A stretch of 64,000 nt of DNA. Origin: a virus. This document shows positions 6,210 to 25,225 of this stretch, one piece after another. A model generated the notes under the pieces. It was not told the DNA's origin. It made no database searches and was given only the letters and a program-made list of their open reading frames with translations. The stretch lies in IMG/VR virus record IMGVR_UViG_3300021405_000010, positions 1 to 64,000 of that record; one strand, 5' to 3'. The translations under genes were made by a program, and so were the position numbers. The first letter of the stretch is position 1, and every line of letters starts with the position of its first letter.

Positions 6210-8731
6210 TGGCCGCCTCCTGTCTGTGCGCCAGCCATTGCCCCGGCCCCGAGCCCTGGCGGCCCCGCAGAGCCGTTACCATTGCCGCCGGGCATCCCTG
6301 CCGCGTTATTGCCCATCGGAAGCCCCATGGGGCCGTGGATCGCTCCTGGAGGCCCTCCTGGCGCTGGCGCTCCGCCGGGCCCACCCGGCACTCCGGCCAC
6401 CCCGCCGGTCTGCTGGGCTAACATCTGCATCTGAGCCTGCATCATCTCGGCCTGTTGCACTTTCTGGACCAGCTCGTTTAGCATTTTCTCCAGGTCCTTC
6501 ATCTGGAGGATCTGGGGTTTAAGCTGCCGTTTATTGGCCCCGGCCTGCATCATTGCTTGGATGTGTGCCTCGGCATGCGTTGCCCCCAGCTTGCATGCCT
6601 GAAGTAGGTCTTTAGGGATCTGAACGGGAGGCATCTGAGAAGCAATTTTAAGGTGATCAGCCACCGCCGGAATAATGGTCTGGAAGTGTTGCATGTGTGG
6701 ATCGCGCTGGCTAACCTGCACACCGATCCCGCTCCCGAGCATGGTTGACCACTCCATTTGTTGCGACCTCTGGGCTTCGATATCGCTCGTCTGACTGGGC
6801 TGGGGCACATAGATCTCCTTGCACGTTTTAAACCCGATCATCCGGTTGGCCGCCATTTCGTCGAGCTTGGATTGGTCGAAGTTGGGGTTCTGCCGGGCCA
6901 GCTGGTAGAATTGCAAGAACATCATGTCGTCCTGGGCCCCGGCGGCTGCCGTAAATTCGGTGGCCGGTTCGTGGGCCAGGATAATGATCTCCTGGATCGA
7001 GAGCCCGTCATCCATCAGGGCGATGATGGTGTTGACGCTCGCTTCGTCCGCCTGGGCCAGATCGGGAGCCGCGACAAACATCTCAGAGGTCGTCGAATCG
7101 ACCTCCATCATGGCCGAATAGAGGTCCTTAGCGATCATCGTCTTACCGGTGTCGCTCGCCTTGAGCCGGGCCTTCCTCTGCTTGAGCGCGGCTCGCAAAT
7201 TAGTCTTGGAATAGATCCGCCGCTGCATCGAGCTAATCCCCTTAGTGAACTGAACCCACCAGCGGTTCATCATCCCCTGTTTAACCTCTTCCTCCTTGAC
7301 GGCATCGATCGACTCTTTAGTGGCCGTCTGGATCATCTGGCCATTGTTAGAGATCTGCTGCTGATCGGGCAGGAACGCTCCGGCGATGATTTCCGCCGTG
7401 TTAGTCATTTTCTGGTCTAACCCGAGCCAGTTGTTAATATCGACCCGGAACTGCTGCATGAGGAGCGTAAAGCCTTCCGGGACGATCATGAAAGGCGATT
7501 TCACATGCGGTTGCAAGCGCCCGATAATCGCCTCCTCGGCCTGCCCAACTAAGAGTCCCGAAATATACATCGCATCAATAAAGCTCATCCTGGCCTTCTC
7601 GGTGGCAAGGCTAATATTGTAGAGAAGCCTGCCAATCCCCTTAGAGCCAAATAACCGGTTATTCCCAGCCTGGAAGCTGAAGAGGGTAATCGCATCATCC
7701 ATCGCGGTCGCCACCGCCTCAAAGTACCCCAGCTCATAGGGGTCATCGTCCATCGGCTTAGGCTCGTCGCCAGACGGGTCAAATTCCGGCTTGGGTTTGG
7801 GCTTGTTGCGCTTTTCGCTCCGGCTCTGGTTATTGCTTCGCTTGCTCCCGTTGCGGTTGACCCACCAGTGGTCAACCGTGTTATCGTAGCACTTCACGAA
7901 AACGTGACACGTCTCAAGCATCTTGGAGGATTTATGAAAGGAGTAATAGAGGTTACCTTCCCGGACCATGTCGGAGAGCTGACGGGGATTGTAGACAAAA
8001 CTGTCATAGGGTGGAGCGGCTTTCTCGATCGCAGTCTTGATGTTCTGGACATTGTAGCCAGCTTCCTGGGCCGTATCGGCATCCTCGATGATCGCCACCG
8101 CCTCATGGATGTAATAGTTGGCTTTGATAACGAACACCGGCAGCTTTTCAGCGAGCTGCGGAGCCTGTTCATCAAAGAGCATATCCTCCTGCCGAAACGT
8201 CTTGGGACGCCACTCGTACTCGTCCATCTGGACGGCACCTGTGTAGCCGTAGAGCACGTTCTCGGTCGCTATCTGCTCAACATGGTCGATCCACCCGTTC
8301 CAGCTTCTGATCTGCTCCGTGGTGCGCTCCCGGAACTTCTGTGTTTTGTTGGTCGCCTCGACAAAACTGGCGGGCAGTTCAGACGCAGTGAGGTACTTCA
8401 TGCCGTGTACCGCATCGGTGAGTCTTGGCGTCACTCGATCTACGAATGTGGCCAGGACGAGCGTCGAGAAATTCGCACGCCAGCCCTGCTCCTGGGTGTC
8501 CAGCTTTTTCTGGTCAAATGGGTTCCCTCCGTTGTAGGAGTCAGTGATCAGCTTGTTGCGATTGGCCCGAGCTTGGTTATCGCGCTGCAGACGAGTGAAA
8601 ACCTCGAAAGCCTGCTGGGCGGAAGTGATCGGTTTATTTACGACCTCTGTGGAGTCCTCGCCAAACTTGGGGGTATTAAAGCGGCCTAACTGCTCGCCGC
8701 CAAAGGAGTCGGTGATGTTGTCGCTGGCCAT
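6206..8731 (-). CDS. portal protein (head-tail connector), podovirus/P22-like
   Basis: An 841-residue protein in the usual slot, a few genes after the large terminase. It has the pattern of long podovirus portals: an N-terminal region (RDNQARANRNKLITDSYNGGN), a wing/stem region with many W/Y residues, a long helical part (AEIIAGAFLPDQQQISNNGQ, EVKQGMMNRWWVQFTKGI), and a C-terminal helical barrel-like stretch rich in Q and M (residues 725-790) ending in a Gly/Pro-rich tail. An acidic/basic low-complexity insert (KRNKPKPKPEFDPSGDEPKPMDDD) lies near residues 310-340. The ring would form the DNA gate at the capsid vertex. Assignment rests on length, position and composition. Confidence 0.7.
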   Translation of the reverse strand: MASDNITDSFGGEQLGRFNTPKFGEDSTEVVNKPITSAQQAFEVFTRLQRDNQARANRNKLITDSYNGGNPFDQKKLDTQEQGWRANFSTLVLATFVDRVTPRLTDAVHGMKYLTASELPASFVEATNKTQKFRERTTEQIRSWNGWIDHVEQIATENVLYGYTGAVQMDEYEWRPKTFRQEDMLFDEQAPQLAEKLPVFVIKANYYIHEAVAIIEDADTAQEAGYNVQNIKTAIEKAAPPYDSFVYNPRQLSDMVREGNLYYSFHKSSKMLETCHVFVKCYDNTVDHWWVNRNGSKRSNNQSRSEKRNKPKPKPEFDPSGDEPKPMDDDPYELGYFEAVATAMDDAITLFSFQAGNNRLFGSKGIGRLLYNISLATEKARMSFIDAMYISGLLVGQAEEAIIGRLQPHVKSPFMIVPEGFTLLMQQFRVDINNWLGLDQKMTNTAEIIAGAFLPDQQQISNNGQMIQTATKESIDAVKEEEVKQGMMNRWWVQFTKGISSMQRRIYSKTNLRAALKQRKARLKASDTGKTMIAKDLYSAMMEVDSTTSEMFVAAPDLAQADEASVNTIIALMDDGLSIQEIIILAHEPATEFTAAAGAQDDMMFLQFYQLARQNPNFDQSKLDEMAANRMIGFKTCKEIYVPQPSQTSDIEAQRSQQMEWSTMLGSGIGVQVSQRDPHMQHFQTIIPAVADHLKIASQMPPVQIPKDLLQACKLGATHAEAHIQAMMQAGANKRQLKPQILQMKDLEKMLNELVQKVQQAEMMQAQMQMLAQQTGGVAGVPGGPGGAPAPGGPPGAIHGPMGLPMGNNAAGMPGGNGNGSAGPPGLGAGAMAGAQTGGGQ

Positions 8732-8735
8732 AAAC

Positions 8736-8975
8736 TTATTTGGTAGGGGTTGAGCTTGGCAGCACAGTGGATTTCACCCCTTGGATTTCTTTCTCCAAGA
8801 TGGCCGTCTGCTGATTGACCAGGGTGCGGATATCGGCGGCTTTCTGCTCCATCAGGTTGGCTTTGGTGCCCATTACCTTTTCGATATCGACTGACTGCAG
8901 GACGTTGACGATCTGCAGAATCACCACGGCGATTCCGCCGATCACGGCGAGGGCTTGCTTGATCTGAGTGGTCAT
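8736..8975 (-). CDS. small membrane protein with one N-terminal helix
   Basis: A 79-residue protein with a single hydrophobic helix at residues 8-27 (ALAVIGGIAVVILQIVNVLQ) followed by a helical soluble part (EKVMGTKANLMEQKAADIRTL). The ATG at 8975 is chosen because it makes a 4-base ATGA overlap with the upstream gene; a longer in-frame reading has no such support. The topology fits an inner-spanin or holin-accessory protein, but no family is recognised. Confidence 0.6.
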   Translation of the reverse strand: MTTQIKQALAVIGGIAVVILQIVNVLQSVDIEKVMGTKANLMEQKAADIRTLVNQQTAILEKEIQGVKSTVLPSSTPTK

Positions 8976-9592
8976 GCCTTCCAACAATGGGGTGGGGGAG
9001 GTTGTTCTGAAGTGGAATGGGTATCGGTGAGCCAGACGGCGACCTCGTTTAAGTGGCCGTAGAGGCGGCACATGAAAAGCCGCCGGTCCAAGGGCGTATA
9101 GAGTGATCCCTTGGCCTGCTGGATCCGGACCAGGATGTTGTCGTTGCAGGGGGCGCACGGAGTGGACCAGCGGACGTTCTGAGGGCACTGGACGCAAACT
9201 TGAGCCCGGTGCCCGGCCAGGGCGTAATCGACATGCTCGACCCGGGCATGGCCCAGCTGGGCTATCCACGCTCCGGCCCGGTCGATGGGACGGCTGTAAT
9301 CAGGCCGGTTTCCGATCCCCGGCGTAACGGCTGGCGGGGACCAGCTGTCGGCACAGTTCTGGCGGAAGTTGGCGCACAGATAGGTCTTCAAATCCGCGCG
9401 CACCGATTGGATGTTGGCGCTCGGGGCCCCGCATAATTCCAGGTGCCGTAAGCGGAAATCGAGGATGTTGGAGAGAAGCTCCTCGAAACTGTAAGCCGTG
9501 ATCTTGACCGACTGGCCGGTGCCCAGAGCTTGGGGGTAATGCCAGCCGCCCGGCATGACCACGGACGTAACGATGCCGTACTCGACAGACAA
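8972..9592 (-). CDS. conserved Cys-rich phage protein of unknown function
   Basis: A 206-residue protein. The C-terminal half holds a likely zinc-binding set (VCVQCPQN, then TPCAPCND, then FMCRLYGH). The N-terminal half contains ITAYSFEELLSNILDFR and may be a small alpha/beta domain. It lies among the terminase-portal genes, which suggests a morphogenesis or packaging role. No family is recognised with certainty. Confidence 0.55.
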   Translation of the reverse strand: MSVEYGIVTSVVMPGGWHYPQALGTGQSVKITAYSFEELLSNILDFRLRHLELCGAPSANIQSVRADLKTYLCANFRQNCADSWSPPAVTPGIGNRPDYSRPIDRAGAWIAQLGHARVEHVDYALAGHRAQVCVQCPQNVRWSTPCAPCNDNILVRIQQAKGSLYTPLDRRLFMCRLYGHLNEVAVWLTDTHSTSEQPPPPHCWKA

Positions 9593-9599
9593 AGTGATC

Positions 9600-9863
9600 T
9601 CAGATCTTTTTCTTGCTGAATGCGGGGACCGATTTCCCGGCTTTTCCGGAGCCGCTTTTGGCTGCCGGATGAGCAGGGTTGCCCTTTGCGGTGGTCTTGG
9701 TCAGGGTGGATTTCACCGGGTAATTGGCCGCCATGTGCGGCACTGCTTTACCTTTACCGGCATTGGTTGTTTTGACGTGGTCGGTAAAACCGGAGCGGGT
9801 CTTACTGCCGGTCATGATGCCGCCGCCGGTTGGTTTTTTGCTAAAGGCTGGGATCGATTTCAT
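9600..9863 (-). CDS. small Lys-rich basic protein with repeated PAFSKK ends
   Basis: An 87-residue protein starting at the ATG at 9863 (MKSIPAFSKK) and ending VPAFSKKKI. The same IPAFSKK/VPAFSKK hexapeptide sits at both termini around a Lys/Thr/Gly-rich centre (TTNAGKGKAVPH, KSTLTKTTAKG). Strong positive charge suggests nucleic-acid or capsid binding. The start is chosen because a hairpin terminator lies just upstream (9926-9957), and readings further upstream would cross it. Confidence 0.5.
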   Translation of the reverse strand: MKSIPAFSKKPTGGGIMTGSKTRSGFTDHVKTTNAGKGKAVPHMAANYPVKSTLTKTTAKGNPAHPAAKSGSGKAGKSVPAFSKKKI

Positions 9864-9925
9864 GGAGTGGATCGGAAGGACGCTAACCCGAGCTATACCC
9901 CCAAGGCGGCGTCCGTGCCAATAAC

Positions 9926-9957
9926 AAAGGCTCCGGGTGACACAACCCGGAGCCTTT
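9926..9957. terminator. perfect 13-bp stem-loop, terminator-like
   Basis: AAAGGCTCCGGGT (9926-9938) and its exact reverse complement (9945-9957) enclose a 6-base loop. It sits between the Pro-rich gene (9986-10441) and the Lys-rich gene (9600-9863), both on the minus strand. The base of the stem is A/T. No long T-run follows on either strand, so partial termination or an mRNA-end structure is possible. Confidence 0.7.
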
Positions 9958-9985
9958 CTTGCTGCTACTGGTTTGGGAGAGTTTT

Positions 9986-10441
9986 TTAAGCTGGCGGTTG
10001 TGCCGGGGGTTGTGCTGCTGACTGGTCGCTGGGCGTCGGCACGTTGCCTGTCGGTATCCCAACGACAATCCATCCAGTTACCGGAGTCCATGCTGTCTTC
10101 CAATCAACTGGTCGGCTATCAGGTGCTGGTAGAGTTGGAGGAAGATCGGGCGGCAAGACAATTGGATGCGACGGGATCGGAGCCTGTCCTTCAGGCGGAT
10201 TGGGCCAAATACCGATGTCTGGCCTGTAGATCGGATGCGATGGGTGAGCGCCCGAAGGAGGTTGCGGTGATGGGCCTCCGATGTCCGGATAAGGTGGGTT
10301 TGGTCCGGGCCAGATTCCTGGAGGCTGTCCGCCGGGGGCAATAGGATGCGTAGGAATTGGGCCGCCGGGCATGGGGCCGCCACCTACTCCAACGTCGGAA
10401 TAGGTGAGGACGCCTTGGAAAGTTACGGGGATAGATGCCAT
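9986..10441 (-). CDS. Pro/Gly-rich small phage protein next to terminase
   Basis: A 151-residue protein with a short N-terminal strand-like part (MASIPVTFQGVLTYSDVG). About 90 residues of PGGPIPTHPI / PSHPI repeats follow, then a compact tail (WKTAWTPVTGWIVVGIPTG). The HPI-containing units recur roughly every 25-30 residues (THPIAPGG, SHPIYRPD, SHPIVLPP). The composition fits an extended linker or virion decoration protein. No enzyme motif is seen. It lies between terminase and portal in the packaging operon. Confidence 0.6.
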   Translation of the reverse strand: MASIPVTFQGVLTYSDVGVGGGPMPGGPIPTHPIAPGGQPPGIWPGPNPPYPDIGGPSPQPPSGAHPSHPIYRPDIGIWPNPPEGQAPIPSHPIVLPPDLPPTLPAPDSRPVDWKTAWTPVTGWIVVGIPTGNVPTPSDQSAAQPPAQPPA

Positions 10442-10486
10442 TTGAGATTCTCGCTTTCTGGTTGGTTGGGTTGAAAGACAGTCCTC

Positions 10487-12304
10487 TCAGAGGTCTTGAC
10501 TGAAGTCAATATAAGCCGTGCGTTCTCGTGGTCCGATATTGCCATCCGGGCCTTTAAATCTCGGAGCCTTGTTAGAGCCCAGCATCGAGGCTTTTTCGGG
10601 CCCGTTTAAGGCCGCGCCGTGCACCATCTGGACCATGGCATCCGCGATATCCGGGCTCCAGCCCAGGCGCTTCTTAAACTCTTTCTTGGGCTCCAGGCGG
10701 ATCCGGGGCTTTCCGCTTGGGCCCTTGGGCGCTGGCTGATACCGGCGGCCCGAAAGCTCTTTAAAAAGCTGTGAGGTCTGAATCTGGGGGTGGAACGCGA
10801 TGTGACCAAACTCCAGGAATTTGCGGACCCGGGCGTACATCTCGGTATCGATCCCGTCGTAGATCTCGACCGCATAATCGTGGTCGTCGGCCAGGATCTT
10901 GCGGTTCCCGGCTTCCGCGCCCCACTGGATGCCGCGCACCGAGCCGCTCCACTGCTCCATCAAGGCGTCATGGGTGCCGGTGCCAACCCCGGTCCGGTCA
11001 CAGGTCGTCCAGTCTGGGTTAATGTTCAAGCCTTTCAACTTGTGCTCGATCGAGTTGGCCAGGGCGATCGTTTTCTCTTTGGGCATCTCGAAATACTGGT
11101 CGCACTGGATGGTGTAGCGGGGCTTCTGCCAGAGGACCGGCTTACCATTTAAGGGCTGAAAGCCGATCGCTTTCCCGTACCGGCCAACGAAGACGATGAT
11201 CCGGTCTCCCCCTTCAAAAGCCAGATCAATCCCGCCGCACCCGATGGTCCTCCCGCTAAACATAAACTGGCCGATCACCTCCTCCAGGAGGCTGTAGGGG
11301 ATTAGGGTGTTCTGGAGCGCCGTGAGCGGGTACATGCCCCTGCCAAAGGTTAGATACTTCGGGCTCTGCCCACCCAGCTCCAGGGCGAACTTCTGGTAGC
11401 CATCCCAGGTTAAAAAACCCGGGAAAACCAGTTTGCGCTCGATCACGTTTTCGCAATCGGTCCCGTCTAGGCGTAACACATTCCACCTTTCACTCGAGAC
11501 CCACTCTTTATCCTTATCCAGGTTGACGGTGGTCCAGCCGTTGACCGGTTCGGCCAGCTGGGCCAGCTTCGAGGTGACATCCCGAGGGTTAGTCGCGCAC
11601 ATGACCTTGACCGCTTCCGCGCCCCAAGCTGATGCCAGGAGGTTGCTAACGCCTTCCCAAACGCCTGAAGGAATTTCTTCCGCTTCGTCCAGTACGGCGC
11701 GTACCCGCGACATGGATCCAAAAAGAGGGTGGGCGTTGTTCCGAGGTACGGGATGAAAACCTTGTAGTACACCTCGTCCATCCTCACCTTGTGGGATGGC
11801 GACCAGTGTGATTGCCGAATGTCGATCCTTTGGATTGAGACCGACAAATCCGTCCATACTGAGACCCGGTAAGGGGATAATAGCGGCCTTATAGAGGCGT
11901 TGGAGCGTCGAAAAGCTCTGGCTCTTCGCATGGCCGCCGGTCGTACTGATGATCTTGATTTCGGTGTACTCGGGGTCGCGGATCCAGTCGAGCAGGACAT
12001 AGCAAATCAGGCTGTAGGTTTTACCCATCGCCGCCGCGCCTAAGACGATCAGGTTCTGGGTGGTCCTGGCAGTGTGGAGGAGCTGCTGGACGGCGCGGGG
12101 CCCGGCATTAAAGAGCTTGTCTCCCCAGATTAGGAGTCCCGCCAAGCCGTAACGTTCGGTGTCCAGTAACCGCTTAATCAAGAACCAGATCCAGGTCCGG
12201 GCCTGATCGGGGTGCTGGACGGAAGGGTCGTACACGCTGACCGCGCGAACGACCTCCTCGTCAGTGCCCTCCCCGCAATCACGCCTGAACTTTACGAGAT
12301 CCAC
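10487..12304 (-). CDS. terminase large subunit (packaging ATPase/nuclease)
   Basis: A 605-residue protein with both TerL domains. ATPase: a Walker A variant GAAAMGKT (residues 89-96), Walker B plus catalytic acid VRAVLDEAEEIP (about 201-212) and a coupling motif CATNP (236-240). Nuclease: an RNase H-like first acid in CGGIDLAFEGGD (D360), a second in WTTCDRTGVGTG (D436) and a late SPDIADAMVQMVHG helix. It translocates DNA through the portal and cuts the concatemer. The Walker A loop has Ala in place of the usual Gly/Ser positions, as is common in phage terminases. The start overlaps the end of the PEP-CTERM-like gene. Confidence 0.9.
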   Translation of the reverse strand: MDLVKFRRDCGEGTDEEVVRAVSVYDPSVQHPDQARTWIWFLIKRLLDTERYGLAGLLIWGDKLFNAGPRAVQQLLHTARTTQNLIVLGAAAMGKTYSLICYVLLDWIRDPEYTEIKIISTTGGHAKSQSFSTLQRLYKAAIIPLPGLSMDGFVGLNPKDRHSAITLVAIPQGEDGRGVLQGFHPVPRNNAHPLFGSMSRVRAVLDEAEEIPSGVWEGVSNLLASAWGAEAVKVMCATNPRDVTSKLAQLAEPVNGWTTVNLDKDKEWVSSERWNVLRLDGTDCENVIERKLVFPGFLTWDGYQKFALELGGQSPKYLTFGRGMYPLTALQNTLIPYSLLEEVIGQFMFSGRTIGCGGIDLAFEGGDRIIVFVGRYGKAIGFQPLNGKPVLWQKPRYTIQCDQYFEMPKEKTIALANSIEHKLKGLNINPDWTTCDRTGVGTGTHDALMEQWSGSVRGIQWGAEAGNRKILADDHDYAVEIYDGIDTEMYARVRKFLEFGHIAFHPQIQTSQLFKELSGRRYQPAPKGPSGKPRIRLEPKKEFKKRLGWSPDIADAMVQMVHGAALNGPEKASMLGSNKAPRFKGPDGNIGPRERTAYIDFSQDL

Positions 12305-12539
12305 GGCGTTTAAGTTCCCAGGCCGCCGCGCCCACTAGGAACATCGCTCCCAGGATGAGTGCAGGGTTGGCCTCGGGTACGACCGGCGGAACTTTAGAGG
12401 TGATGTAATTACCGATCGAGCGTTCGTACTCGTAAGTACCCAGGCCCGGAGGGTAACCATGAAAGGTGAGACAATTTTGTTCGGCTTTGACCGTCATGGT
12501 CAAAACACACATTAGTGCTGCTACGGTTAGTTGCTTCAT
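12279..12539 (-). CDS. exported protein with PEP-CTERM-like sorting signal
   Basis: An 86-residue protein. The N-terminus (MKQLTVAALMCVLTMTVKAEQ) is a signal peptide with a likely cleavage after VKA. The C-terminus reads VPEANPALILGAMFLVGAAAWELKRRG: a VPE-type motif, a single hydrophobic helix and a basic tail, which is the tripartite plan of PEP-CTERM signals processed by exosortase in Gram-negative bacteria. Only about 35 residues lie between the two signals. It lies immediately upstream of the terminase and downstream of the secreted beta-helix gene. The AACGTTGAGCAT operator-like motif (12540-12550) abuts the start codon. Function unknown; a surface or biofilm-matrix effect on the host is inferred. 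Confidence 0.65.
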   Translation of the reverse strand: MKQLTVAALMCVLTMTVKAEQNCLTFHGYPPGLGTYEYERSIGNYITSKVPPVVPEANPALILGAMFLVGAAAWELKRRGSRKVQA

Positions 12540-12655
12540 ACGTTGAGCATGAAATACGGATTATCAACGTTCATCTTTAGGACGAAGTGCCTCTACTACG
12601 AGCCGGGCGGCTTCCAGATCAAGAAAATAAGCCACCGTGATCCCCAGCCGGTCGA

Positions 12656-13039
12656 CTACAACATGGAGTCGCTCAAATCGATTTCGACCTCCTGGGGCTT
12701 TGACGAGGAGGGGGTCTGTTTCGTAATCTTCCACTCGCCAAGGGAGTCGGAGATCAGGCCCTGGTTGAACGCTTCTGAGACCACTCGGCGCAGGGCGATC
12801 ACCACCGCTTCCTTCAGGCAGTACCGTTGGGTCTGCCGGAGTCGTTCCACGCCGCGCCCCTGTGCGTCGAGATGCTTGGTCGTTGTGTTGATCTGATAGC
12901 ACTCGGTAAGCTCCAGCATCTCGAGTTCGTTCGCCAGGACGATCCGGATCTGATCAGCCTCCCGATAGATCGAGAGGCTTAAATTAGCGCACAGCTGGGC
13001 TGTTACTGGTCTGGGGTCGGGGGATTGGCTTTGATCCAT
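12656..13039 (-). CDS. small hypothetical protein, helical
   Basis: A 127-residue protein from the ATG at 13039 (an in-frame GTG at 13060 is an alternative). It has a strand-helix start (QLCANLSLSIYREADQIRIVLANELEMLEL) and a basic central helix (RYCLKEAVVIALRRVVSEAFNQGL), then an acidic end (EVEIDLSDSML). Its 5' end overlaps the 3' end of the beta-helix gene by about 37 bases. No family is recognised. The charged, helical composition would suit a regulatory or DNA-binding role. Confidence 0.55.
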   Translation of the reverse strand: MDQSQSPDPRPVTAQLCANLSLSIYREADQIRIVLANELEMLELTECYQINTTTKHLDAQGRGVERLRQTQRYCLKEAVVIALRRVVSEAFNQGLISDSLGEWKITKQTPSSSKPQEVEIDLSDSML

Positions 13040-14541
13040 TCGGTTTGTTTGTCCAGCCACTGCCGGTAGGTCGCCCCTGACGGAGTGGGACTCGGCGTCG
13101 GGTTTGGTGTCGGAGTGGGCGTGGGAGTTGGTTTAGGCGTTGGCGTTGGCGTCGGCGTCGGGTTTGGTGTCGGCACCGGAGTTGGAGTTGGCGGGGGTGT
13201 CGGTGTGGGTGCAGCGCCACCATTGTAAGCGTAGGCACCGATGTCCCACGGGCTTTTGCGCGTCACTCCTTCGATATCCGTCGTAAAAGAGCTTGAGAGA
13301 TCGACGCCTTTACCCACTGCCGGTGAACCCGATGTCAGATCGAAATCATTGGCACCGACAAACTTTGGATCGACGTTTTCCAGGTTGTGGTCAATCACCA
13401 GGGTGGCCGCCCCGCCCACCGTGTAAATCGTAGTCATCCAATTCCAGATGATGTTGTTGCGGATGGTCGCCGTGGTGCCGGGAATGTTGCCGGTGTACTG
13501 GCGAATGCCTAAGCCGCCCTGGGATGAGTTGGTGCAGACGATGGTGTTGTTGTAGACGTAGGGCTGGTTGCAGGAGGGGAAGATGCAGCCGTTACTCGCC
13601 CCGCCGGTCGTCGCCACGCAAAGGTTGTTGTAGATCAGCACGCCTTCCATCCCGACTGAAACGCTCCCGCTCTCATTGGCCGAGACGTAGATAAAGGCCG
13701 TCGAGTGCGCTCCGGCATCGCCGTGGACGTAGTTGTTGTAGATTCGGAGGTTAGTGACTTTCGAGCCGGGCTGGGCCGCCCAGATGTACATCCCGTTGTG
13801 ATGGTTGTTATTGGGCGGGTCATCCCAGATCGTCCCCGGCATCGAGATGTCGTTGTCGTGGATCTTGAAATTGTCGATGACAGCATTGGCACCGCCCGAG
13901 CCAGAGCCAATCCCCCAGTTGACGTCACTGATCGTGTTGTGATCCAGCTCGATGTTGGAGGAGGCCGGGGTGATTGAATAGGTGTAAAAGATACCCGCAC
14001 CCGCGCTGGCCAGGACGCAATCATGCACATGGAAATTGCTCCCGTAGGACAGACTCACCGCCGTCCCGGCGCTGTTGGCCGTATCGGCTACCGTGGTCTT
14101 CTTGTACATGTTGGTGATCTTGAGATTCTTGACCTCGAGATTATTCTGCTGCGAGACCGCGATCCCGTGCGAGCTGACTCCGCTGGTCGTATTCTGGCCG
14201 GTCGCCGTGATCAGGCCGTTCTGGCCCCCGTCGATCACCACAAAGGAGCCGCCCACTGTGATGGCGGCCTTGTTCCAGTGATCGGCGGTCATGTTGGCTC
14301 CAGGCTCAAAAAGCAAGGTAACGGGGCTCGAGCTGGATCCCGATCCGTTGATCGTGATGCTGGAGGTGATGGTGCCCACCAAGTGATTGACAGTGCCAGC
14401 TGTCCACTGAGCGCCGGAGACGGCTTTGCAGTTGCTGGCGCTGGATCCCGAACCATTCCCAGTCGCAGACTGGGCCAGATAGACATCAGCCGCGATCAAG
14501 CGGCTGGCAAAGAGGAGTAAGCAGAGAAGGGGTAATCTCAT
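13003..14541 (-). CDS. secreted right-handed beta-helix protein, paralogue of the phage tailspike
   Basis: A 512-residue protein. Residues 1-18 (MRLPLLCLLLFASRLIAA) are a signal peptide. Residues 20-415 form a parallel beta-helix, seen as repeated I.N(N/T).(I/V) rungs (LRIYNNYVHGDAG, VLIYNNLCVATTG, ATIRNNIIWNW). Residues 425-485 are a (PTP)n linker, and the tail is YRQWLDKQTEWIKANPPTPDQ. The beta-helix is clearly homologous to residues 1-420 of the 1155-residue protein at 38808-42275: (I/M)PGTIWDDP, then HHNG(M/I)YIWA, match nearly exactly. That copy has no signal peptide and carries virion-type repeats. This one therefore appears to be an exported duplicate. A polysaccharide-binding or depolymerase activity is possible. 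Confidence 0.8.
   Translation of the reverse strand: MRLPLLCLLLFASRLIAADVYLAQSATGNGSGSSASNCKAVSGAQWTAGTVNHLVGTITSSITINGSGSSSSPVTLLFEPGANMTADHWNKAAITVGGSFVVIDGGQNGLITATGQNTTSGVSSHGIAVSQQNNLEVKNLKITNMYKKTTVADTANSAGTAVSLSYGSNFHVHDCVLASAGAGIFYTYSITPASSNIELDHNTISDVNWGIGSGSGGANAVIDNFKIHDNDISMPGTIWDDPPNNNHHNGMYIWAAQPGSKVTNLRIYNNYVHGDAGAHSTAFIYVSANESGSVSVGMEGVLIYNNLCVATTGGASNGCIFPSCNQPYVYNNTIVCTNSSQGGLGIRQYTGNIPGTTATIRNNIIWNWMTTIYTVGGAATLVIDHNLENVDPKFVGANDFDLTSGSPAVGKGVDLSSSFTTDIEGVTRKSPWDIGAYAYNGGAAPTPTPPPTPTPVPTPNPTPTPTPTPKPTPTPTPTPNPTPSPTPSGATYRQWLDKQTEWIKANPPTPDQ
13065..13220 (-). repeat. (Pro-Thr)n-encoding repeat tract
   Basis: Short GTTGGCGTC/GGAGTGGGC-type units repeat and encode a PTPTPTPxPTP linker of about 55 residues in the secreted beta-helix protein. 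A similar but shorter PTPTPTPTPTP tract is found in the virion protein at 61087-62835. Such tracts vary readily by slippage. Confidence 0.75.
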
Positions 14542-14580
14542 TTTATGAGGTAGAGCAGATTCTCCTGGCGTTGGCCACTC

Positions 14581-14919
14581 TCATTTCTGCCACCACGCCT
14601 TGAAGCTGTTGATCTCATCGATCGAGGGGTAAGCGCCGGTAAAGAGGAAAGCCCGGTCGTCGATGTAGAGCCATGCCGGGGGCTTCGTGTTGGTGATCTG
14701 GACCACCATAGAGACTTCCGGCGGGGCATGAACTTGCAGCCATTCGTGAACCAGTTGCTCCGGCCTCGTCGTAAAGATGACTACCGCGAACCCGTGATCG
14801 AGGCATTCGTTCAGGAAGTCGATCGCGCCGGGAAGCGGCGGATCCAAGGGTGCCATCTCGCCCTTCCAGCCGGTGTAGGCTGAAAGGACTCCATCAAAAT
14901 CAATTGCCAGCGTCTTCAT
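14581..14919 (-). CDS. HAD-superfamily phosphatase-like protein
   Basis: A 112-residue protein with the HAD motif I DFDGVLS (residues 7-13; the nucleophile would be D7 and the acid D9), motif II-like FTTRPE (about 49-54) and motif IV-like LYIDDRAF (about 84-91). The length fits a minimal HAD hydrolase, like phage or bacterial polynucleotide 3'-phosphatase-type or 5'-nucleotidase-like proteins. It sits between the beta-helix gene and a Zn-ribbon gene on the minus strand. The substrate is unknown; a nucleotide or nucleic-acid phosphate fits the replication neighbourhood. Confidence 0.8.
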   Translation of the reverse strand: MKTLAIDFDGVLSAYTGWKGEMAPLDPPLPGAIDFLNECLDHGFAVVIFTTRPEQLVHEWLQVHAPPEVSMVVQITNTKPPAWLYIDDRAFLFTGAYPSIDEINSFKAWWQK

Positions 14920-14922
14920 AAA

Positions 14923-15285
14923 TCAGAATGGTTTCGCCGGGCCCTCACTGCTGCACTTGCAGCGGCCCTCGGGGTTCCGGCTGGTGATCGGGACCTTCTT
15001 CCCGCAGTCCTCGCACTCACGCATCAGATTGCGCGCATTGGCCCAGGTGGCCCCGCAGTGGCTGCACTGGCCGTAGTAATGCCACTCATCCCCTGAGAAA
15101 GTCGGGGGGACGTTTTTGGTGATCCCGCAGGCCGGGCAGTCAAAGGAGAGGATCCGGGCCGGTATACAGAGCTTCAGGCGTCTCTCTGCTCGTTCGTCCG
15201 CTTTAAAAGCATGCTTTTTCCAGCCGTCCAGGTTCGGAGCCGCCGCCTGCGGCTCCCACCCTTCCAGGTCAAAGTCCTCACTCAT
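14923..15285 (-). CDS. zinc-ribbon protein
   Basis: A 120-residue protein with three CxxC knuckles in its second half (FDCPACGITKN, GQCSHCGATWAN, RECEDCGKKVP) followed by GRCKC. This makes two likely zinc ribbons, as seen in phage replication or transcription accessory proteins. The N-terminal 45 residues are acidic then basic. It is coupled to the replisome-organiser-like gene upstream by a 4-base overlap. An AAAAGCATGCTTTT palindrome (15205-15218) lies in the coding region and encodes KHAF. Confidence 0.65.
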   Translation of the reverse strand: MSEDFDLEGWEPQAAAPNLDGWKKHAFKADERAERRLKLCIPARILSFDCPACGITKNVPPTFSGDEWHYYGQCSHCGATWANARNLMRECEDCGKKVPITSRNPEGRCKCSSEGPAKPF

Positions 15286-15740
15286 AGCTTGGCGTTCAGG
15301 AATTTGACGAATGACGTTACAAGCTTGGGCTTATCCATTGCCTCGCACCATTGCCTGAAGTCCCAGGCCGCCTTGTGGACATCGACTTTCTTGTAGGCCG
15401 GGTTCTGGGCCAGGGCCTCCAGGATCTCGTTGGTCATCAGCTCGCCCGGCTTGGGCTTGAGCGGGGCCTTCTGGCTGGGGAACCAGCCTGCCCGGGCCCA
15501 CAGGCGCACTGCTGCGGTCCAGCTGTGGATCTTGGTGCCCCTGGCCGTCTTAAAGCCCGAGACCAGCCATGTGTCGTAGAGGTACTCGGCATCGCTGTCT
15601 GGGAGCCCCAGCCGGGCTGTCTCGGCCCTGATCTCGGAAAGGGGTGGCATCCCCCGGGGCCTGTCTTCTGCCTTGGTCTCAAACTCGGTCAGGCCATCCA
15701 ACGGGCGCTGGCCTAGGTGCTTCTCTTCTTTTCTTGTCAT
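15282..15740 (-). CDS. replisome-organiser/DnaT-like C-terminal domain protein
   Basis: A 152-residue protein. Residues 35-90 (IRAETARLGLPDSDAEYLYD, then W.VSGFKTARGTKIHSWTAAVRLWARAGW) have the pattern of the C-terminal domain found in phage replication initiators and DnaT-like loaders, where a helix pair ends in a W-rich stretch. A second helical part follows (EILEALAQNPAYKKVD). The domain usually contacts single-stranded DNA and the helicase. The gene is immediately downstream of a 300-base non-coding region full of inverted repeats (15741-16038), which fits an initiator next to its origin. Confidence 0.5.
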   Translation of the reverse strand: MTRKEEKHLGQRPLDGLTEFETKAEDRPRGMPPLSEIRAETARLGLPDSDAEYLYDTWLVSGFKTARGTKIHSWTAAVRLWARAGWFPSQKAPLKPKPGELMTNEILEALAQNPAYKKVDVHKAAWDFRQWCEAMDKPKLVTSFVKFLNAKL

Positions 15741-16038
15741 ACGTCTTTTCTTAGATCCTTATCTGTCAGGAGGAATCCTCGCTTCGCTCGGAATATGTCA
15801 GGACACTGTCCTGATTAGGAAACAATAACCCCCCTACCCCCCTTGGAACTACAGAGAGGTAGCAGGGCTATTGTTTCCCAACAAGACAGACCGTCCTGCA
15901 TACGGAAATTCACGAGTACAACCCGAAACTTCCCCGTGATAAAGGACCTTCATGAAAACAAAAAGGGCTGGGCAGGTCAAACAAAGAAATCCTTTATCAG
16001 GGGAAATTTCCAAGAGGTGACCAGCCAGCCTGATTCAT
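15741..16038. other. non-coding region with stacked inverted repeats, candidate replication origin/control region
   Basis: No credible gene lies here. It holds three inverted repeats. The first is an operator-like perfect dyad TCAGGACA-C-TGTCCTGA (15798-15814). The second is GGAAACAATA (15818-15827) with its complement (15869-15878) flanking a C-rich run. The third is a larger imperfect repeat CTTCCCCGTGATAAAGGA (15929-15946) against 15990-16007. A TCCTGATTAGGA motif related to those near other early promoters overlaps the first dyad. It lies upstream of the replisome-organiser-like gene. Confidence 0.45.
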
Positions 16039-16425
16039 TTATTCGCTTTTTGGTTTAAAAGTCAAGCTCTGGACCAGCTTGATCGCTTCGTCGGCGGAGT
16101 AGACGATGAAGTAAGGGATCCCCTGATTCTCCAGCCGCTCTTTAAAATCCTTCTGGACTTCGGTCAGGGGGTTGGGGGCGCGCTTGAATTCGATCCAGAA
16201 GGTGATCGTCTCGGCACCCACCACAAAGTCGGGGCACCCCAGGCTGGCCTTGGTCTTGTGCGCGGTCGAGTGCCAGACGAAGGGGTAGAGGTGGAGCAGG
16301 CACCAGTTGGCGAACTGGCGTTGCTCCTCTCTTTCAAGCTTGTCCGTTACCGGCGGCGGGTGCGGATCAGTCTCGAAGCTGGGGCGTACTTCGGGCCCGT
16401 ATCTTTTTTGGTCTTCTTGGCTCAT
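16039..16425 (-). CDS. VRR-NUC-domain nuclease
   Basis: About 128 residues from the ATG at 16425; longer starts at 16470 and 16509 are also open. The VRR-NUC core is clear: an N-terminal helix EREEQRQFANWCLLHLYPFV, the catalytic strand GCPDFVVGAETITFWIEFKRAPNPLTEVQ (PD..ExK, roughly two-thirds along) and ENQGIPYFIVYSADEA. VRR-NUC proteins are PD-(D/E)XK nucleases acting on branched DNA in phages and in FAN1. It follows a small helical protein, a micro-peptide and the helicase in one operon. It might supply the nuclease partner for the Bet protein, since no YqaJ-type exonuclease is seen. Confidence 0.8.
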   Translation of the reverse strand: MSQEDQKRYGPEVRPSFETDPHPPPVTDKLEREEQRQFANWCLLHLYPFVWHSTAHKTKASLGCPDFVVGAETITFWIEFKRAPNPLTEVQKDFKERLENQGIPYFIVYSADEAIKLVQSLTFKPKSE

Positions 16426-16672
16426 GCCTCCGAGGATTTCGGGGCTTAGTTGGTCTCGTCTCCAGCCCATGATCGATATTGATGTCATGCGCTTGCTTTG
16501 GCAAGGCATCGCGGATCTGCCTGATCCTGGTGGCCAGGATCTCGTAGTTCTCCAGCTGGCGTTGAAACGCCAGCTTGGCCTCGGTATGGGCGGCGTTCAG
16601 GGTCAGCTGGAGGTGCCAAAGGAGCGCCTCCGGGTCCTGAGCCTGGGTGATCTTCTGGTCAATCTTCCTCAT
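16367..16672 (-). CDS. small helical protein upstream of VRR-NUC
   Basis: A 101-residue protein. It has an N-terminal helical part (KIDQKITQAQDPEALLWHLQ, then FQRQLENYEILATRIRQIRD) and a strongly basic, Pro-rich C-terminal tail (TKPRNPRRHEPRRPKKIR). The tail suggests nucleic-acid binding. The 3' end overlaps the start of the nuclease gene, and the 5' end overlaps the micro-peptide gene by ATGA. No family is recognised. Confidence 0.55.
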   Translation of the reverse strand: MRKIDQKITQAQDPEALLWHLQLTLNAAHTEAKLAFQRQLENYEILATRIRQIRDALPKQAHDINIDHGLETRPTKPRNPRRHEPRRPKKIRARSTPQLRD

Positions 16673-16731
16673 GCCGTTTTTATGATGTAGATGACCAGCA
16701 CAACAAAGATGGCGAAGGCGACAAGATTCAT
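16669..16731 (-). CDS. 20-residue membrane micro-peptide
   Basis: An open frame of 20 codons (MNLVAFAIFVVLVIYIIKTA) that is almost one transmembrane helix. Its start makes an ATGA overlap with the stop of the helicase gene, and its stop makes an ATGA overlap with the next gene. It is therefore translationally coupled on both sides, which is hard to explain unless it is translated. Too short for family assignment. Confidence 0.5.
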   Translation of the reverse strand: MNLVAFAIFVVLVIYIIKTA

Positions 16732-18290
16732 GCCGCCCTCCTGGCCCGGGCCTGCTCCCGGGTCAACGCCCAGACATCATCGCCCTCCAGCCCTGCCAGA
16801 TCACGAATTTCAGCCAGCTTTTTATAACGGCGCTTACCGATCGCCTGCATGACTTTCCGGGCCTGGGCCTCGGTCTGGACGCTGTCCGGATCGATTCCGG
16901 CATTTGAGAGCAGGGTTTTAGTGAAATTACTCGGGCGCGCACGCTTCTCCCAGGCGTAGACCGGCTGCCAGTTGACGAGTTCGTGATCGTGGATCGCCGC
17001 CGCGAAGTAGTCCGCCCGGACCATTCCGGCCCGAAAGCGAGCCGCAGCTTCAAGCTTGCGTCTAATTGCCTCCTCTCGTTGAAGCTGGATATCAAGCTGC
17101 ATCTGGCGCAAGGAATAGCTTTGCTTGTCCTTGGTGGCCTTCTCCATCTCCTCGGCCATCTCCTGGTCCGCCGCGATCAGGAATGCCGGGGAAACCAGAT
17201 CCATCTCGGAGCTGAGCCACAGAGGGTCGATAATGATGCTGTGGGGCTTGCTGGAGGCCGCAATCGCCCGGAGCCTGCCTTCTATGGTCCCGATGCCGTC
17301 GATCGTTCCTGGGGCCGTCCTGGTCGATCTGCCCACGATCTGGGTGTAGAGCACTTTGCTCTTGGTGGGCCGCAGGTTTAAGGTCGCGTCACAGATCGGC
17401 GCGTCGATACCGGTATGGAGTAAATTCGAGTTGCTTAAGAGGGTAATCCGGCCTTCCCGGAAGGCCTGGAGTTTCGCGTCCCGCAGAGGGTCTTCACCGT
17501 CCACATGAACGGCATTGATGCCCTCCGCGACACATGCCTCGACGAACTTCTGCGAGCTGGCCACCAGGGGCAGGAAGGCCAGGATATGACGGTCGTTAAA
17601 CCGGGCTTTGATCTCCTTGGCGATCTCCCGGAAATAGGGCGCAATGGCATCGGCGGCATCATTAACATCGAAGTCTTTGCCCTCCGGCGTCCGGCGGATT
17701 CGTACGTTCGCCAGACTGACTGCAGTCGAGAGCTTCTCGACGTGATCCGGATCCACCAAATAACCTTCGTCCACAAGGTCAAAGAGATCTTTCCGGTAAG
17801 CTTCGACCTCAAAGATCTCGGAGAGAGCTTTGCCGTCCGCCCGGAAAGGCGTGGCTGTGATGCCGCAGACCTTCGCCGCATCAAAGTGAGTAAAAATCCG
17901 TTTCCAGGATTCGGCCAGAGCCCCGTGTGCTTCATCGGCAAAGATGTATTGGAAGTGATCTTTAGGGAACCGCTCCAGCCGGGCCTTGCGGGTTAAGGTT
18001 TGCACCGAACCAACCACCACCTGGGCGCTTAAGGGCGCTTTGGACTCGGCCTTCTCCAGGGCGGCAATAAAGCCCTGGTCCCGGAAAGCGCCCAAAGGCT
18101 GGGTGCAGAGTTCGTTGCGGTTAGCTAAAAATAACACGCGGCCAGTCTGAACCAGGATCCTGGTCGTCCCAGCCGCAATCAGGGTTTTGCCACCACCCGT
18201 GGCAATCGTGGTAATGCACGTTTTGTGCTTGGTCCACGTAGAGAGGATCGCCTTGGAGGCGTCTTGTTGGTAATCTCGGAATTCTTTCAT
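16728..18290 (-). CDS. SF2 DEAH-box helicase
   Basis: A 520-residue protein with the full superfamily 2 motif set: Q-like YQQDA, Walker A ATGGGKT (residues 30-36), motif Ia ANRNE, DEAH (119-122), motif III GITATPF (143-149), and motif VI in the C-terminal lobe, IVGRSTRTAPG. A C-terminal extension (about 390-520) is helical and basic. The plan resembles the RadD/UvrB-like helicases and the helicase part of type I restriction subunits, and such proteins are common in phage replication-recombination modules. It would unwind or remodel DNA with ATP. A TTTCCTAATTGACA sequence about 35 bases upstream is a likely promoter part. Confidence 0.9.
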   Translation of the reverse strand: MKEFRDYQQDASKAILSTWTKHKTCITTIATGGGKTLIAAGTTRILVQTGRVLFLANRNELCTQPLGAFRDQGFIAALEKAESKAPLSAQVVVGSVQTLTRKARLERFPKDHFQYIFADEAHGALAESWKRIFTHFDAAKVCGITATPFRADGKALSEIFEVEAYRKDLFDLVDEGYLVDPDHVEKLSTAVSLANVRIRRTPEGKDFDVNDAADAIAPYFREIAKEIKARFNDRHILAFLPLVASSQKFVEACVAEGINAVHVDGEDPLRDAKLQAFREGRITLLSNSNLLHTGIDAPICDATLNLRPTKSKVLYTQIVGRSTRTAPGTIDGIGTIEGRLRAIAASSKPHSIIIDPLWLSSEMDLVSPAFLIAADQEMAEEMEKATKDKQSYSLRQMQLDIQLQREEAIRRKLEAAARFRAGMVRADYFAAAIHDHELVNWQPVYAWEKRARPSNFTKTLLSNAGIDPDSVQTEAQARKVMQAIGKRRYKKLAEIRDLAGLEGDDVWALTREQARARRAA

Positions 18291-18338
18291 ACGACAGCCC
18301 TACTCTCGCCCTGGTTAATACTTTGTCAATTAGGAAAG

Positions 18339-18503
18339 TCACTTTTTCAACTTTTCCTTGCGCCAGCGTTTCTTGGCCGCCGCCTTCATCGGGCCGTGCC
18401 CCCGGGCCTTGGACTCCCCACTGGCCTTGCCCATCAGGGTGGCCCCCATCTTTTTTAACCACGCATCCTCGAGGATCTCGTTACAGAACGGGCATCGTGC
18501 CAT
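18339..18503 (-). CDS. 54-residue basic protein with N-terminal CxxC
   Basis: Translated from the ATG at 18503: it begins MARCPFCNEI and ends in a Lys/Arg-rich helix (MKAAAKKRWRKEKLKK). A CPFC knuckle with a basic tail is typical of small phage nucleic-acid-binding proteins. It is preceded by a plausible purine-rich site (GGAGCGCCA). The stop lies just upstream of the promoter-like TTTCCTAATTGACA of the helicase gene. Confidence 0.5.
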   Translation of the reverse strand: MARCPFCNEILEDAWLKKMGATLMGKASGESKARGHGPMKAAAKKRWRKEKLKK

Positions 18504-18514
18504 TGGCGCTCCTT

Positions 18515-18808
18515 TTATTCGATGTCGATCTCAACCTCGGCGTTATTGGGCTTGATGATGGAGCCTTTCAGTTCTTCCAGGTCCACCCGGAAGCCCCGCC
18601 GCTCCTGGTCGCCGTTCCCCACCTCCAGGCCGGTCTTTTTCCAGAACCGCAGGACCGAATAGTTCGGCACCCGGACGATCAGCTGGCTGTCCCGCCAGCC
18701 GATCACCTCGCCCTCATAGGTCTCATTGCGCGGGGGTTCGGGCACCTTGTCGTACCAGTAAACCGCGACGTGCAAGGGGTGACCGATCTCCAGCTTCTGC
18801 TTATCCAT
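18515..18808 (-). CDS. small beta-rich (SH3-like) hypothetical protein
   Basis: A 97-residue protein. Alternating strands (HPLHVAVYWYDK, ETYEGEVIGWRDSQLIVRVP, YSVLRFWKKTG) suggest a small barrel or SH3-like fold, with an acidic tail (NAEVEIDIE). No catalytic motif is visible. It is separated from the upstream DNA-binding-protein gene by copy 2 of the 65-bp element and two TATAACGTTATA palindromes, one of which touches its start codon. Confidence 0.5.
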   Translation of the reverse strand: MDKQKLEIGHPLHVAVYWYDKVPEPPRNETYEGEVIGWRDSQLIVRVPNYSVLRFWKKTGLEVGNGDQERRGFRVDLEELKGSIIKPNNAEVEIDIE

Positions 18809-18942
18809 ATAACGTTATACTCAGGGGTATGCCCAACGTTGCACTGTCGGCAATTTGCCGAAAATTCGGCTGATTTTGAGGCACTTGCGTAAGGAAAAAG
18901 GGCAAATCTAACGTTATACCAGGATTACGCATATAACGTTAT
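18807..18942. promoter_or_regulatory. intergenic control region: copy 2 of the 65-bp element with three AACGTTAT palindromes
   Basis: The 65-bp element core spans 18829-18893 (ATGCCCAACGTTG, palindrome TCGGCAATTTGCCGA, CTTGCGTAAG end). It is flanked by ATAACGTTATAC (18809-18820), TAACGTTATACC (18909-18920) and ATATAACGTTAT (18931-18942). The last supplies the stop codon of the gene at 18939-19823. It lies between two minus-strand genes, so it could act as an operator, promoter or attenuator for the 18515-18808 gene. Confidence 0.6.
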
Positions 18943-19823
18943 TTCGGGGTCAGCTCGATGACGATCCTGGCCCGGTTCTCGTAGTTGATGGCGGCACTGC
19001 CCCCGCGCGCGCTAGCGATCAGGATCAGCTCATGGACATCGGTACTGTCCTCGATCGCTTTATTTTCAAACGCCACGGCTTTGTTTAAGGGCCAGTTCTT
19101 GTCGATGACGTAATAGGTCAGGTTGCGCATCATCTGGTCGTCGTACTCCGCCCAGTTGCGGATCTCGCGCTCGGTCATCGCTCGAGTGCCCTCCTCGATC
19201 GCCTGGGCGATCTGGGCCCCGCAGATTTTGCGGATCCGGTTGAGCGCGGCCTCGCCCTTCTCGGTCAGGACCAGGACGCCCTCCTGGGCTGGTGATTTCT
19301 TCCTGGCCGGTGGGCCCTGGCCATTCTCCTGGTCACCCATCTCAATCTCCACTTGGCCGCCCTCCTGGGCTTGGGCCTGGGCCGCGACCGGCTGGGCCGC
19401 CTCGGCCTGCTCGACGGCGTGCTTGACGTCTTCAGTGGTCAGGATTTTATCCTGGCCCTCGGCCCGGATAACGAGGTTATTCCAGACCGTGGCCCGAAGC
19501 TCGGGCTCCAGGCGCGACAGCTCCGCCGCCTGACTTTCATTGGCTGGCAGGGCCAGCCCCGCATCCTGGAGCTGCTGAACCGTCTGACTGACGGCAATAA
19601 TCCGCCGGTAGGTCCGCAGGTCGATCTGGAGAAACTCGGTGATGTATTCGCTGAAATCCGCCGTTTTCTCGGTGTATAATTCGTCCCGGTAAATCTTGTG
19701 CAGTTCCTTGGCGATCAAACAGGTAGCTTCCAGGCCCCTGCGAAACGCCGTCCTGATCTTAATTTCGCAATCCTCCAGCTGGGTCTTGCGAGCCGTGTCC
19801 GCCGATAAAGCTCGTGTGGTCAT
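18939..19823 (-). CDS. putative DNA-binding protein (phage ParB/KorB-like helical domain)
   Basis: A 294-residue protein. Residues 15-85 (EDCEIKIRTAFRRGLEATCL, then KELHKIYRDELYTEKTADFSEYI, then LRTYRRIIAVSQ) follow the pattern of a helical domain common in phage and plasmid proteins: a capacity-for-growth helix, LY...(T/F)F.EY and a helix-turn-helix R.Y..I..S. The second half is coiled and acidic, then alpha/beta (LNRIRKICGAQIAQAIEEG). The same LY..(T/A).(F)KEYC domain appears in the protein at 60243-60854. It probably binds DNA; both ends of its gene carry the AACGTT-type repeats, so autoregulation is possible. Confidence 0.5.
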   Translation of the reverse strand: MTTRALSADTARKTQLEDCEIKIRTAFRRGLEATCLIAKELHKIYRDELYTEKTADFSEYITEFLQIDLRTYRRIIAVSQTVQQLQDAGLALPANESQAAELSRLEPELRATVWNNLVIRAEGQDKILTTEDVKHAVEQAEAAQPVAAQAQAQEGGQVEIEMGDQENGQGPPARKKSPAQEGVLVLTEKGEAALNRIRKICGAQIAQAIEEGTRAMTEREIRNWAEYDDQMMRNLTYYVIDKNWPLNKAVAFENKAIEDSTDVHELILIASARGGSAAINYENRARIVIELTPK

Positions 19824-19851
19824 CCCGCAACGTTAGTGAAAGCTCAGGCAT

Positions 19852-21009
19852 TTACCAAGGCTTCTCCATTTTGCTGAAAGCGATGGCCGATTCAAACGCT
19901 TCCGCGTCGGATTTCTGGGCGGAATTGACATTGTCCCAGACGGCCCTCACCTTGGGTAACCACTGGGACTCGATCGCCTGGAGTTCCGCGACCGAGAGGT
20001 CTCCCACGGTGCGGCCAACGAACTTGGGGTTTTTAAGCCCGGCGATGACGTGAAAGGCCCAGGGCTTGGCACTCTCCGCCGGGGGGCCGCCAGAAGCTTC
20101 GGCGGAAGCTTCTGGCGGGGGTTGTGCCGGTGGAATCTCACCCATGTCCAGGTCATCGGGCTCTTGGGGGGCCGGGGCCGATGCCGGGGCTGGAGGAGCG
20201 GCGGCGACAGGTTTGGGCGGTTCGGCACCAGCTGACATTTGTCCGCTGGTATCTGAGTAAGGACGGCCTTCCTTATCTTTTGGCTCAGCCGGAGCGGCGG
20301 CTTCGGCTGGAGTGGGCTTCTTGCCGGGCTTGGACTCGACGACCTTGATCCCCTTGGCGGCGGCCTGCTTTAAAAGCTCTTCTTCCTTGGCCCGGTTCTT
20401 AGTGATCTTCTCCTCGTCGTTGTACTGGTCAGCTTCCGAAACCCCGCCCTGGAGTTCCTCGGTGATGTAGAGGTTGCTGCACTGGTCCGGGAAGGCCCCT
20501 CTGAGCGCCTGGGCTTTCGCGCACTTACCCAGCATGAAATCCGGCAGGCGCTCCCAGAAATCGCTCACCTCCCAGCGGTTGGTGGCCTTGTTATAGGCCT
20601 GACCGCAGTACCCGGCCCACCGGGCGATCCCCACCTCCGGGTGGGTGCGCTCCTTGTGGAAAACGACACACTTGGCCGCCATGGGAAATTCATCCTCCAG
20701 CCACTCATCGCGCCAGACGCCGTCTTTCCCGGCCCAGGTGATCACTGACCCGTCGTAGTGGCCGGTGCGCGCGGCGATGGCCGTCAGGCCGATTACGCTG
20801 GTCACCGGCACCAGGGTGGGGACCTTATTGCCCTGCCGGTCCTTGTTGTAGCGCCTCGTGGCATAGATCTGCTTGGAAAAGGGATCCAGTAAAGTGCGCT
20901 GGCAGAGCCTGACAAAACTCTCCTGCTCATCCTCGGTGTAGCCCGAAAGCAGGGTGCGTTTAAGGACGGCGATTTCTTCGTCTGAGAGGAATGGGTTGTT
21001 GTCGTTCAT
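19852..21009 (-). CDS. bet: Bet/RecT-family single-strand annealing recombinase
   Basis: A 385-residue protein. Residues 1-200 carry the Bet signature: LSDEEIAVLKRTLLSGYTED, VRLCQRTLLDPFSKQIYATRR, VTSVIGLTAIAARTGHYDG, and WKD-like aromatic strands up to LPDFMLGKCAKAQALRGAFP. It pairs complementary single strands during phage recombination-dependent replication. Residues 215-330 are a Pro/Ala-rich linker, and the C-terminus (GLKNPKFVGRTVGDLSVAEL) is a separate small helical module. It overlaps by 4 bases the coiled-coil gene upstream. No lambda-type exonuclease gene is adjacent. Confidence 0.85.
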   Translation of the reverse strand: MNDNNPFLSDEEIAVLKRTLLSGYTEDEQESFVRLCQRTLLDPFSKQIYATRRYNKDRQGNKVPTLVPVTSVIGLTAIAARTGHYDGSVITWAGKDGVWRDEWLEDEFPMAAKCVVFHKERTHPEVGIARWAGYCGQAYNKATNRWEVSDFWERLPDFMLGKCAKAQALRGAFPDQCSNLYITEELQGGVSEADQYNDEEKITKNRAKEEELLKQAAAKGIKVVESKPGKKPTPAEAAAPAEPKDKEGRPYSDTSGQMSAGAEPPKPVAAAPPAPASAPAPQEPDDLDMGEIPPAQPPPEASAEASGGPPAESAKPWAFHVIAGLKNPKFVGRTVGDLSVAELQAIESQWLPKVRAVWDNVNSAQKSDAEAFESAIAFSKMEKPW

Positions 21010-24326: not shown

Positions 24327-24330
24327 AAAA

Positions 24331-24362: not shown

Positions 24363-24379
24363 GGTGTAAAGCATGCTTT

Positions 24380-25215: not shown

Positions 25216-25225
25216 GTGGGAAAGT

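Follow-up and report, generated by a model that had tools for sequence, protein, structure and literature searches.

The window analysed here, 64,000 nucleotides of a 77,711-base virus record from a soil phage, encodes two related beta-helix proteins, both on the minus strand. The original prediction had given correct coordinates for both open reading frames but no strand; on the plus strand, 13003-14541 contains stops throughout. Read on the minus strand from an ATG at 14541, this stretch encodes the first protein, P0001 (512 aa, 13003-14541). Its N-terminus, MRLPLLCLLLFASRLIAAD, has a basic n-region and a 10-residue hydrophobic core, and residues 1-18 (14488-14541) are flagged as a signal-peptide-like, Sec-type segment by a hydrophobicity rule, in line with the signal peptide proposed earlier. 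The textbook cleavage site is A-x-A. In P0001 the residues at positions -3/-1 are L/A or I/A, which is atypical, and the stricter version of the rule that includes A-x-A does not flag the protein. The signal peptide is followed by a parallel beta-helix (residues 19-390, 13372-14487), identified by AlphaFold2, by fold matches and by Pfam Beta_helix PF13229 (28 versus a cut-off of 25.9), and by a choice-of-anchor Q domain (residues 398-439, 13225-13350; NCBIfam NF041518, 29.1 bits and thus above the curated cut-off of 25). A (PTP)n linker, recognisable in the sequence at about residues 443-488 (13078-13215), leads to a 24-residue C-terminal tail, GATYRQWLDKQTEWIKANPPTPDQ (13006-13077), with a predicted helix at residues 492-505 and a coding sequence that overlaps the next ORF. 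The tail has no family match, and its motif Y..WL..W..NP was found nowhere else among the loci searched. When solved structures were searched by sequence, most of the matches were low-complexity ones to the PTP linker, and a weak PADLOC match was of the same nature.

The gene for P0001 is not part of the tail module but lies with DNA-metabolism genes on one side and the terminase on the other. A HAD-like ORF (weak match; 14581-14919, minus) lies 39 bases upstream and forms, together with P0001 and the gene at 15282-15740, one run of close genes. On the other side, an ORF at 12656-13060 (minus, ATG at 13039) overlaps the end of P0001. It is followed by an 86-aa ORF (12279-12539, minus) with a signal peptide and a C-terminal membrane segment, the only nearby signal-peptide gene to P0001, whose end overlaps the start of the large terminase subunit (10487-12304, minus). 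The latter has no family match and was assigned from its ATPase-like sequence and its position beside the portal gene. The 86-aa product has a short ectodomain with a VPE motif and a basic tail after its membrane segment; a resemblance to PEP-CTERM proteins noticed by eye was not confirmed in NCBIfam or Pfam. No recognised lysis gene adjoins P0001, and no sigma-70 promoter or terminator bounding it scored above shuffled expectation.

Sister phages were found via the terminase (76-80% identity), and the capsids of three large sister records are 93-97% identical to that of the window phage. The capsid gene itself is probably that of a 391-aa protein encoded past the window end (G000 76166-77341, locus L089), which shows this identity among phages with widely differing tail and early genes. 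In the sisters, the conserved flanks of the P0001 region, 15282-15740 and the terminase, lie far apart, and the four genes in between (the 12656 ORF, P0001, the HAD-like ORF and a zinc-ribbon ORF) have no match in any of the three. P0001 therefore lies in a lineage-specific segment of about 3 kb at a rearrangement of gene order relative to the sisters. Neither helix was found in 11 terminase-related records, some of them fragments, and the question raised by the original prediction, whether related phages carry the same pair, is answered in the negative for all other phages sampled, whose records may be incomplete. Furthermore, an annotated phage collection gave no match to the terminase, the portal, P0002 or the L008 and L035 homologues. 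Such a lineage-specific segment could simply harbour a recently captured passenger gene without a selected function in the phage. This seems very improbable, however, given an intact 512-codon frame, the retention of a conserved site (see below) and a codon usage which, in P0001 as in P0002, resembles that of core phage genes. Foreign codon usage as a sign of recent capture was not seen, and the core-like usage of both genes implies that their captures were either not very recent or made from a similar genome.

The second protein, P0002 (1155 aa, 38808-42275, minus), is a tail-module spike. Its start codon is a GTG, and with a stop just before it the open frame spans 1156 aa and leaves no room for a signal peptide. 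Its beta-helix (residues 5-472, 40860-42263), homologous to P0001 by BLASTP and AlphaFold2, is followed by about 680 further residues. These contain two domain copies (residues 518-660 and 691-837, 39765-40724) that match the C-terminal domain of the protein encoded next to it in the tail module, at 42722-43519 (E 1e-27), a region of HFPFTVASTSTVTAL repeats predicted from sequence and model to form a regular beta stem (residues 844-1078, 39042-39746), and a C-terminal domain (residues 1084-1155, 38811-39026). In three sister phages the last ~70 aa are represented by a separate small tail-module ORF with 50-65% identity, and the tail modules of two of them, G305 and G310, encode beta-helix-like proteins which, as read from their sequences, fall outside the P0001/P0002 family. 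Such a combination is as expected of an exchangeable spike. By its sequence, P0002 is a tail-module protein with the position and virion-linked domains of a tailspike; P0001 has neither.

The homology of the two proteins extends far beyond chance. BLASTP aligns residues 20-450 of P0001 with residues 5-472 of P0002 (330 bits, E 1e-105, 42% identity over 474 columns), slightly more than the previously claimed 20-415 and 1-420. The reported motifs are present as well, PGTIWDDP being identical and HHNGMYIWA corresponding to HHNGIYIWA, and the C-terminal difference, a PTP linker and short tail in P0001 versus shared domains and repeats in the spike, is real. In the structure comparison suggested at the time, AlphaFold2 gave a parallel beta-helix for both, with a pLDDT of ~85-95 in large parts of the helix's first half and low values in the linker. 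Among solved structures, the nearest folds belong to polysaccharide lyases and epimerases (PL6 alginate lyase, AlgE4, RbmB), to tailspikes and to one adhesin, PfbA, which is the best structural match by Z; the modelled P0001 thus has the beta-helix fold of PL6 and RbmB-type polysaccharide lyases. An alignment of 22 members reveals a conserved site, W239-D240-x6-H247-H248-N249-G250 (13792-13827, minus), a candidate active or binding site. Y146, W239, H247 and G274 are invariant across all members, D240 is found in 20 and H248 in 18, and the W-D-x6-H-H site is kept in P0001, in P0002 and also across the cellular members.

These cellular members came to light through DNA patterns. Exact peptide patterns derived from P0001 and from the two-copy alignment found no relatives in viral or genome collections, whereas DNA patterns on HH[DN]G[IM][YH] and on WD-x6-HH[DN]G retrieved relatives, among them cellular homologues in Acidobacteriaceae found with the conserved HH[DN]G motif. 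Matches with an E value of 1e-8 or better occur in 11 of 300 Acidobacteriaceae genomes. Exopolysaccharide (EPS) clusters hold 12 of the 15 copies read and nine of the 12 loci, the other three loci lying outside such clusters. Pfam names nine of ten EPS-cluster neighbours tested, including a Wzx-type flippase, a Wzz chain-length protein, a polysaccharide deacetylase, a sugar transferase and a DegT aminotransferase as well as glycosyltransferases, a hexapeptide transferase and an AAA domain. The cellular homologues have signal-peptide-like N-termini, and one of them, L035, exceeds the curated NF041518 cut-off, whereas P0002 gave no hit to this family. We define these proteins here as the Acidobacteriaceae EPS-cluster secreted beta-helix family. 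P0001 fits this family both by its conserved Y, W, H and G in the 22-row alignment and the tree and as a stand-alone protein with a signal peptide according to the hydrophobicity rule, whereas P0002 does not share the latter organisation. The homologues of this one gene family suggest that the phage host is probably a member of the Acidobacteriaceae. The EPS context also bears on the idea that P0001 is an auxiliary enzyme with which the infected cell, in the course of a slow infection in soil, obtains carbon by digesting polysaccharide from its environment. Its lyase-like fold and the widely reported carbohydrate genes of soil viruses would suit this role, but the cellular relatives reside in EPS biosynthesis clusters rather than degradation loci and a helix that also occurs in the spike suggests a role at the cell surface, so that we give this idea little credence.

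In a tree of the 22 members, P0001 and P0002 form one clade with a support of 100/100, while other phage rows are scattered among the cellular rows and most deep branches lack resolution. The terminal branches of P0001 and P0002 are long (0.56 and 0.77 changes per site), and their common ancestor is therefore old. The earlier description of P0001 as a secreted duplicate of the phage's own tailspike can thus be kept only in part. That P0001 is exported, paralogous to the helix of the tailspike and encoded away from the tail genes is very probable, but its origin as a copy of this phage's spike is not supported: the family is cellular, three large sisters lack both helices, and the two proteins are as far diverged as separate captures would be. 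The long branches together with the absence of both helices from the sister records searched led us to reject a recent spike duplication. A joint capture of two old paralogues, or two separate captures out of a single pool, fits better than copying within the phage.

As each other's closest known relatives, P0001 and P0002 may share a ligand, and exported P0001 could then occupy or remove the polysaccharide receptor of P0002, acting as a decoy or, as the original prediction proposed, in superinfection exclusion, so that a further phage of this type could not adsorb. The location of P0001 among non-tail genes agrees with such a function, as does an Acyl_transf_3 (OafA-type) gene at 28704-29717, which the sisters lack and whose type serves in surface conversion. 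However, an identity of 42% is compatible with different ligands, and the pair is absent from every other sampled phage. We therefore regard exclusion as unlikely.

We favour instead a reading, to which we would assign a probability of about one half, in which P0001 as an exported protein of the EPS family acts from inside the infected cell and P0002 acts from the virion, both stemming from the cellular pool. P0001 would probably have been taken, directly or through another phage, from the Acidobacteriaceae EPS-cluster pool, and the helix of P0002, now fused into the tailspike, would have been acquired from the same pool by the phage or an ancestor. P0001 would be made during infection together with the DNA-metabolism and terminase genes and exported via Sec, with a functional signal peptide that is cleaved. 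With a helix that would bind host EPS and probably cleave or modify it, exported P0001 would thin the infected cell's polysaccharide coat from within, and P0002 on the virion would apply the same chemistry from outside. The phage may thus set the infected cell to trimming its own coat of slime, and the likely gain would be progeny that are not trapped in the slime of their producer and/or fewer competing virions that adsorb. P0001 itself is most likely a Sec-exported EPS-active enzyme or lectin acting from within the infected cell. The homology and shared motifs of the two proteins, the fold, resembling lyases, epimerases and tailspikes, the retained site, the signal-peptide relatives in EPS clusters, the close run of genes around P0001, the lack of both helices in the sisters and the tail-module identity of P0002 all argue for this reading, as does the choice-of-anchor Q domain, which is typical of bacterial surface proteins. 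On the other hand, a shared fold by itself is no proof of activity, and the top match by Z of the predicted structure is an adhesin; moreover, the Sec route reaches only the periplasm, leaving the outer membrane to be crossed, and a quarter of the cellular loci (3/12) lie outside EPS clusters. If the favoured reading is true, the slime coat of the host would come under two attacks by related enzymes, an external one by the virion and an internal one by way of host export, with both enzymes drawn from the exopolysaccharide machinery of the host.

Several known systems share parts of this arrangement. RbmB of V. cholerae is a beta-helix lyase with a signal peptide which is encoded in the biofilm matrix cluster and digests the matrix polysaccharide (PMC11637428). 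It resembles P0001 in its parallel beta-helix (Z 29.6, rmsd 2.9, 306 aligned), its predicted signal peptide and its location beside polysaccharide genes, but it is bacterial and only 11% identical; the likeness shown is one of fold and context. Tailspike depolymerases of the Sf6, HK620 and Det7/Dettilon type are beta-helix proteins directed at surface polysaccharides, and P0002 is built in this way; unlike them, P0001 has a signal peptide, shows no virion-attachment or trimerisation module and is encoded outside the tail module. In contrast to the bacterial choice-of-anchor Q proteins (NF041518), P0001 is phage-encoded and has no recognised C-terminal anchor. The gp40 esterase of Xanthomonas phage PBR31 combines an N-terminal signal peptide with similarity to tail-associated hydrolases (PMC10975493), but it is a lysis-module esterase rather than a beta-helix, and no tailspike paralogue has been described for it. 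Finally, the gp17-type "virion structural protein" of the Tunturiibacter phages Tunturi 1 and 2 has a choice-of-anchor Q region in common with P0001 (42.6% over 68 aa); it differs in its length of 1280 aa and its position inside the tail module, and a helix-profile search of the record gave no match.

The original prediction knew of no standard phage system built in this way, a statement that needs to be qualified, since six of the seven other phage members of the helix family outside the sister group (L005, L008, L009, L094, L098 and L100/L131, but not L091) and several tail-module genes of cultured Acidobacteriota phages have signal-peptide-like N-termini. The neighbours of these phage helix members often carry them too, and in an 842-aa protein of G005 the signal peptide is directly followed by the tail-protein N-terminal domain phrog_1640 (residues 23-133). 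Tail fibres are usually thought to fold and assemble in the cytoplasm, a view at odds with the presence of signal peptides on proteins from the tail modules of Acidobacteriota phages in culture. We used Tunturi 3 and the sister phages as a baseline for this pattern. Such N-termini are found on gp12, gp13, gp14, gp16 and gp17 of Tunturi 2 and on two of four proteins of Tunturi 4, and on none of the tail genes of Tunturi 3. Signal peptides go unmentioned in the main text of the paper on the Tunturi phages (PMC11924767), and our literature search found this pattern described nowhere. Some Acidobacteriota phages might regularly export tail-type proteins, namely receptor-binding proteins or depolymerases, via Sec, for reshaping of the infected cell's coat and receptors or for extracytoplasmic virion assembly, with the window phage having split these roles between an exported and a virion copy, a proposal that is possible but rather doubtful.

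The same observation bears on whether P0001 could be an alternative virion component, with an inactive signal peptide or attachment after lysis and with both copies binding receptors for a dual host range. Since several annotated tail or virion proteins of Tunturi 2 and 4 have such N-termini, a virion role is not excluded by a signal peptide alone. Nevertheless, P0001 lies outside the tail module, is missing from the sisters and lacks the shared tail domains and the C-terminal module of the spike, which makes this role quite improbable. Long tail-module proteins with signal-peptide-like N-termini include those at L003 (Tunturi 2, 7829-20771) and L128 (Tunturi 4, 23652-27325), and others occur in L005, L008, L087, L094, L098 and L131; in L087 the segment directly precedes a known tail-protein domain. 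Among the signal-peptide proteins of other phages, one in L098 (7968-11582, minus) has a glycoside hydrolase family 18 domain fused to a beta-helix of the P0001 family.

The OafA-type gene noted above is on the minus strand and encodes a membrane acyltransferase, possibly a modifier of surface polysaccharide, that all three sisters lack. Between the portal and capsid genes, a segment at 402-2567 (minus) encodes an FkbM methyltransferase and two adjacent genes; the FkbM gene is found in one of the three sisters compared and its two neighbours in all three. A 1714-aa protein with a DUF7178 region (55172-60316, minus) has homologous ORFs of 2606 aa in G310 and 2810 aa in G305.
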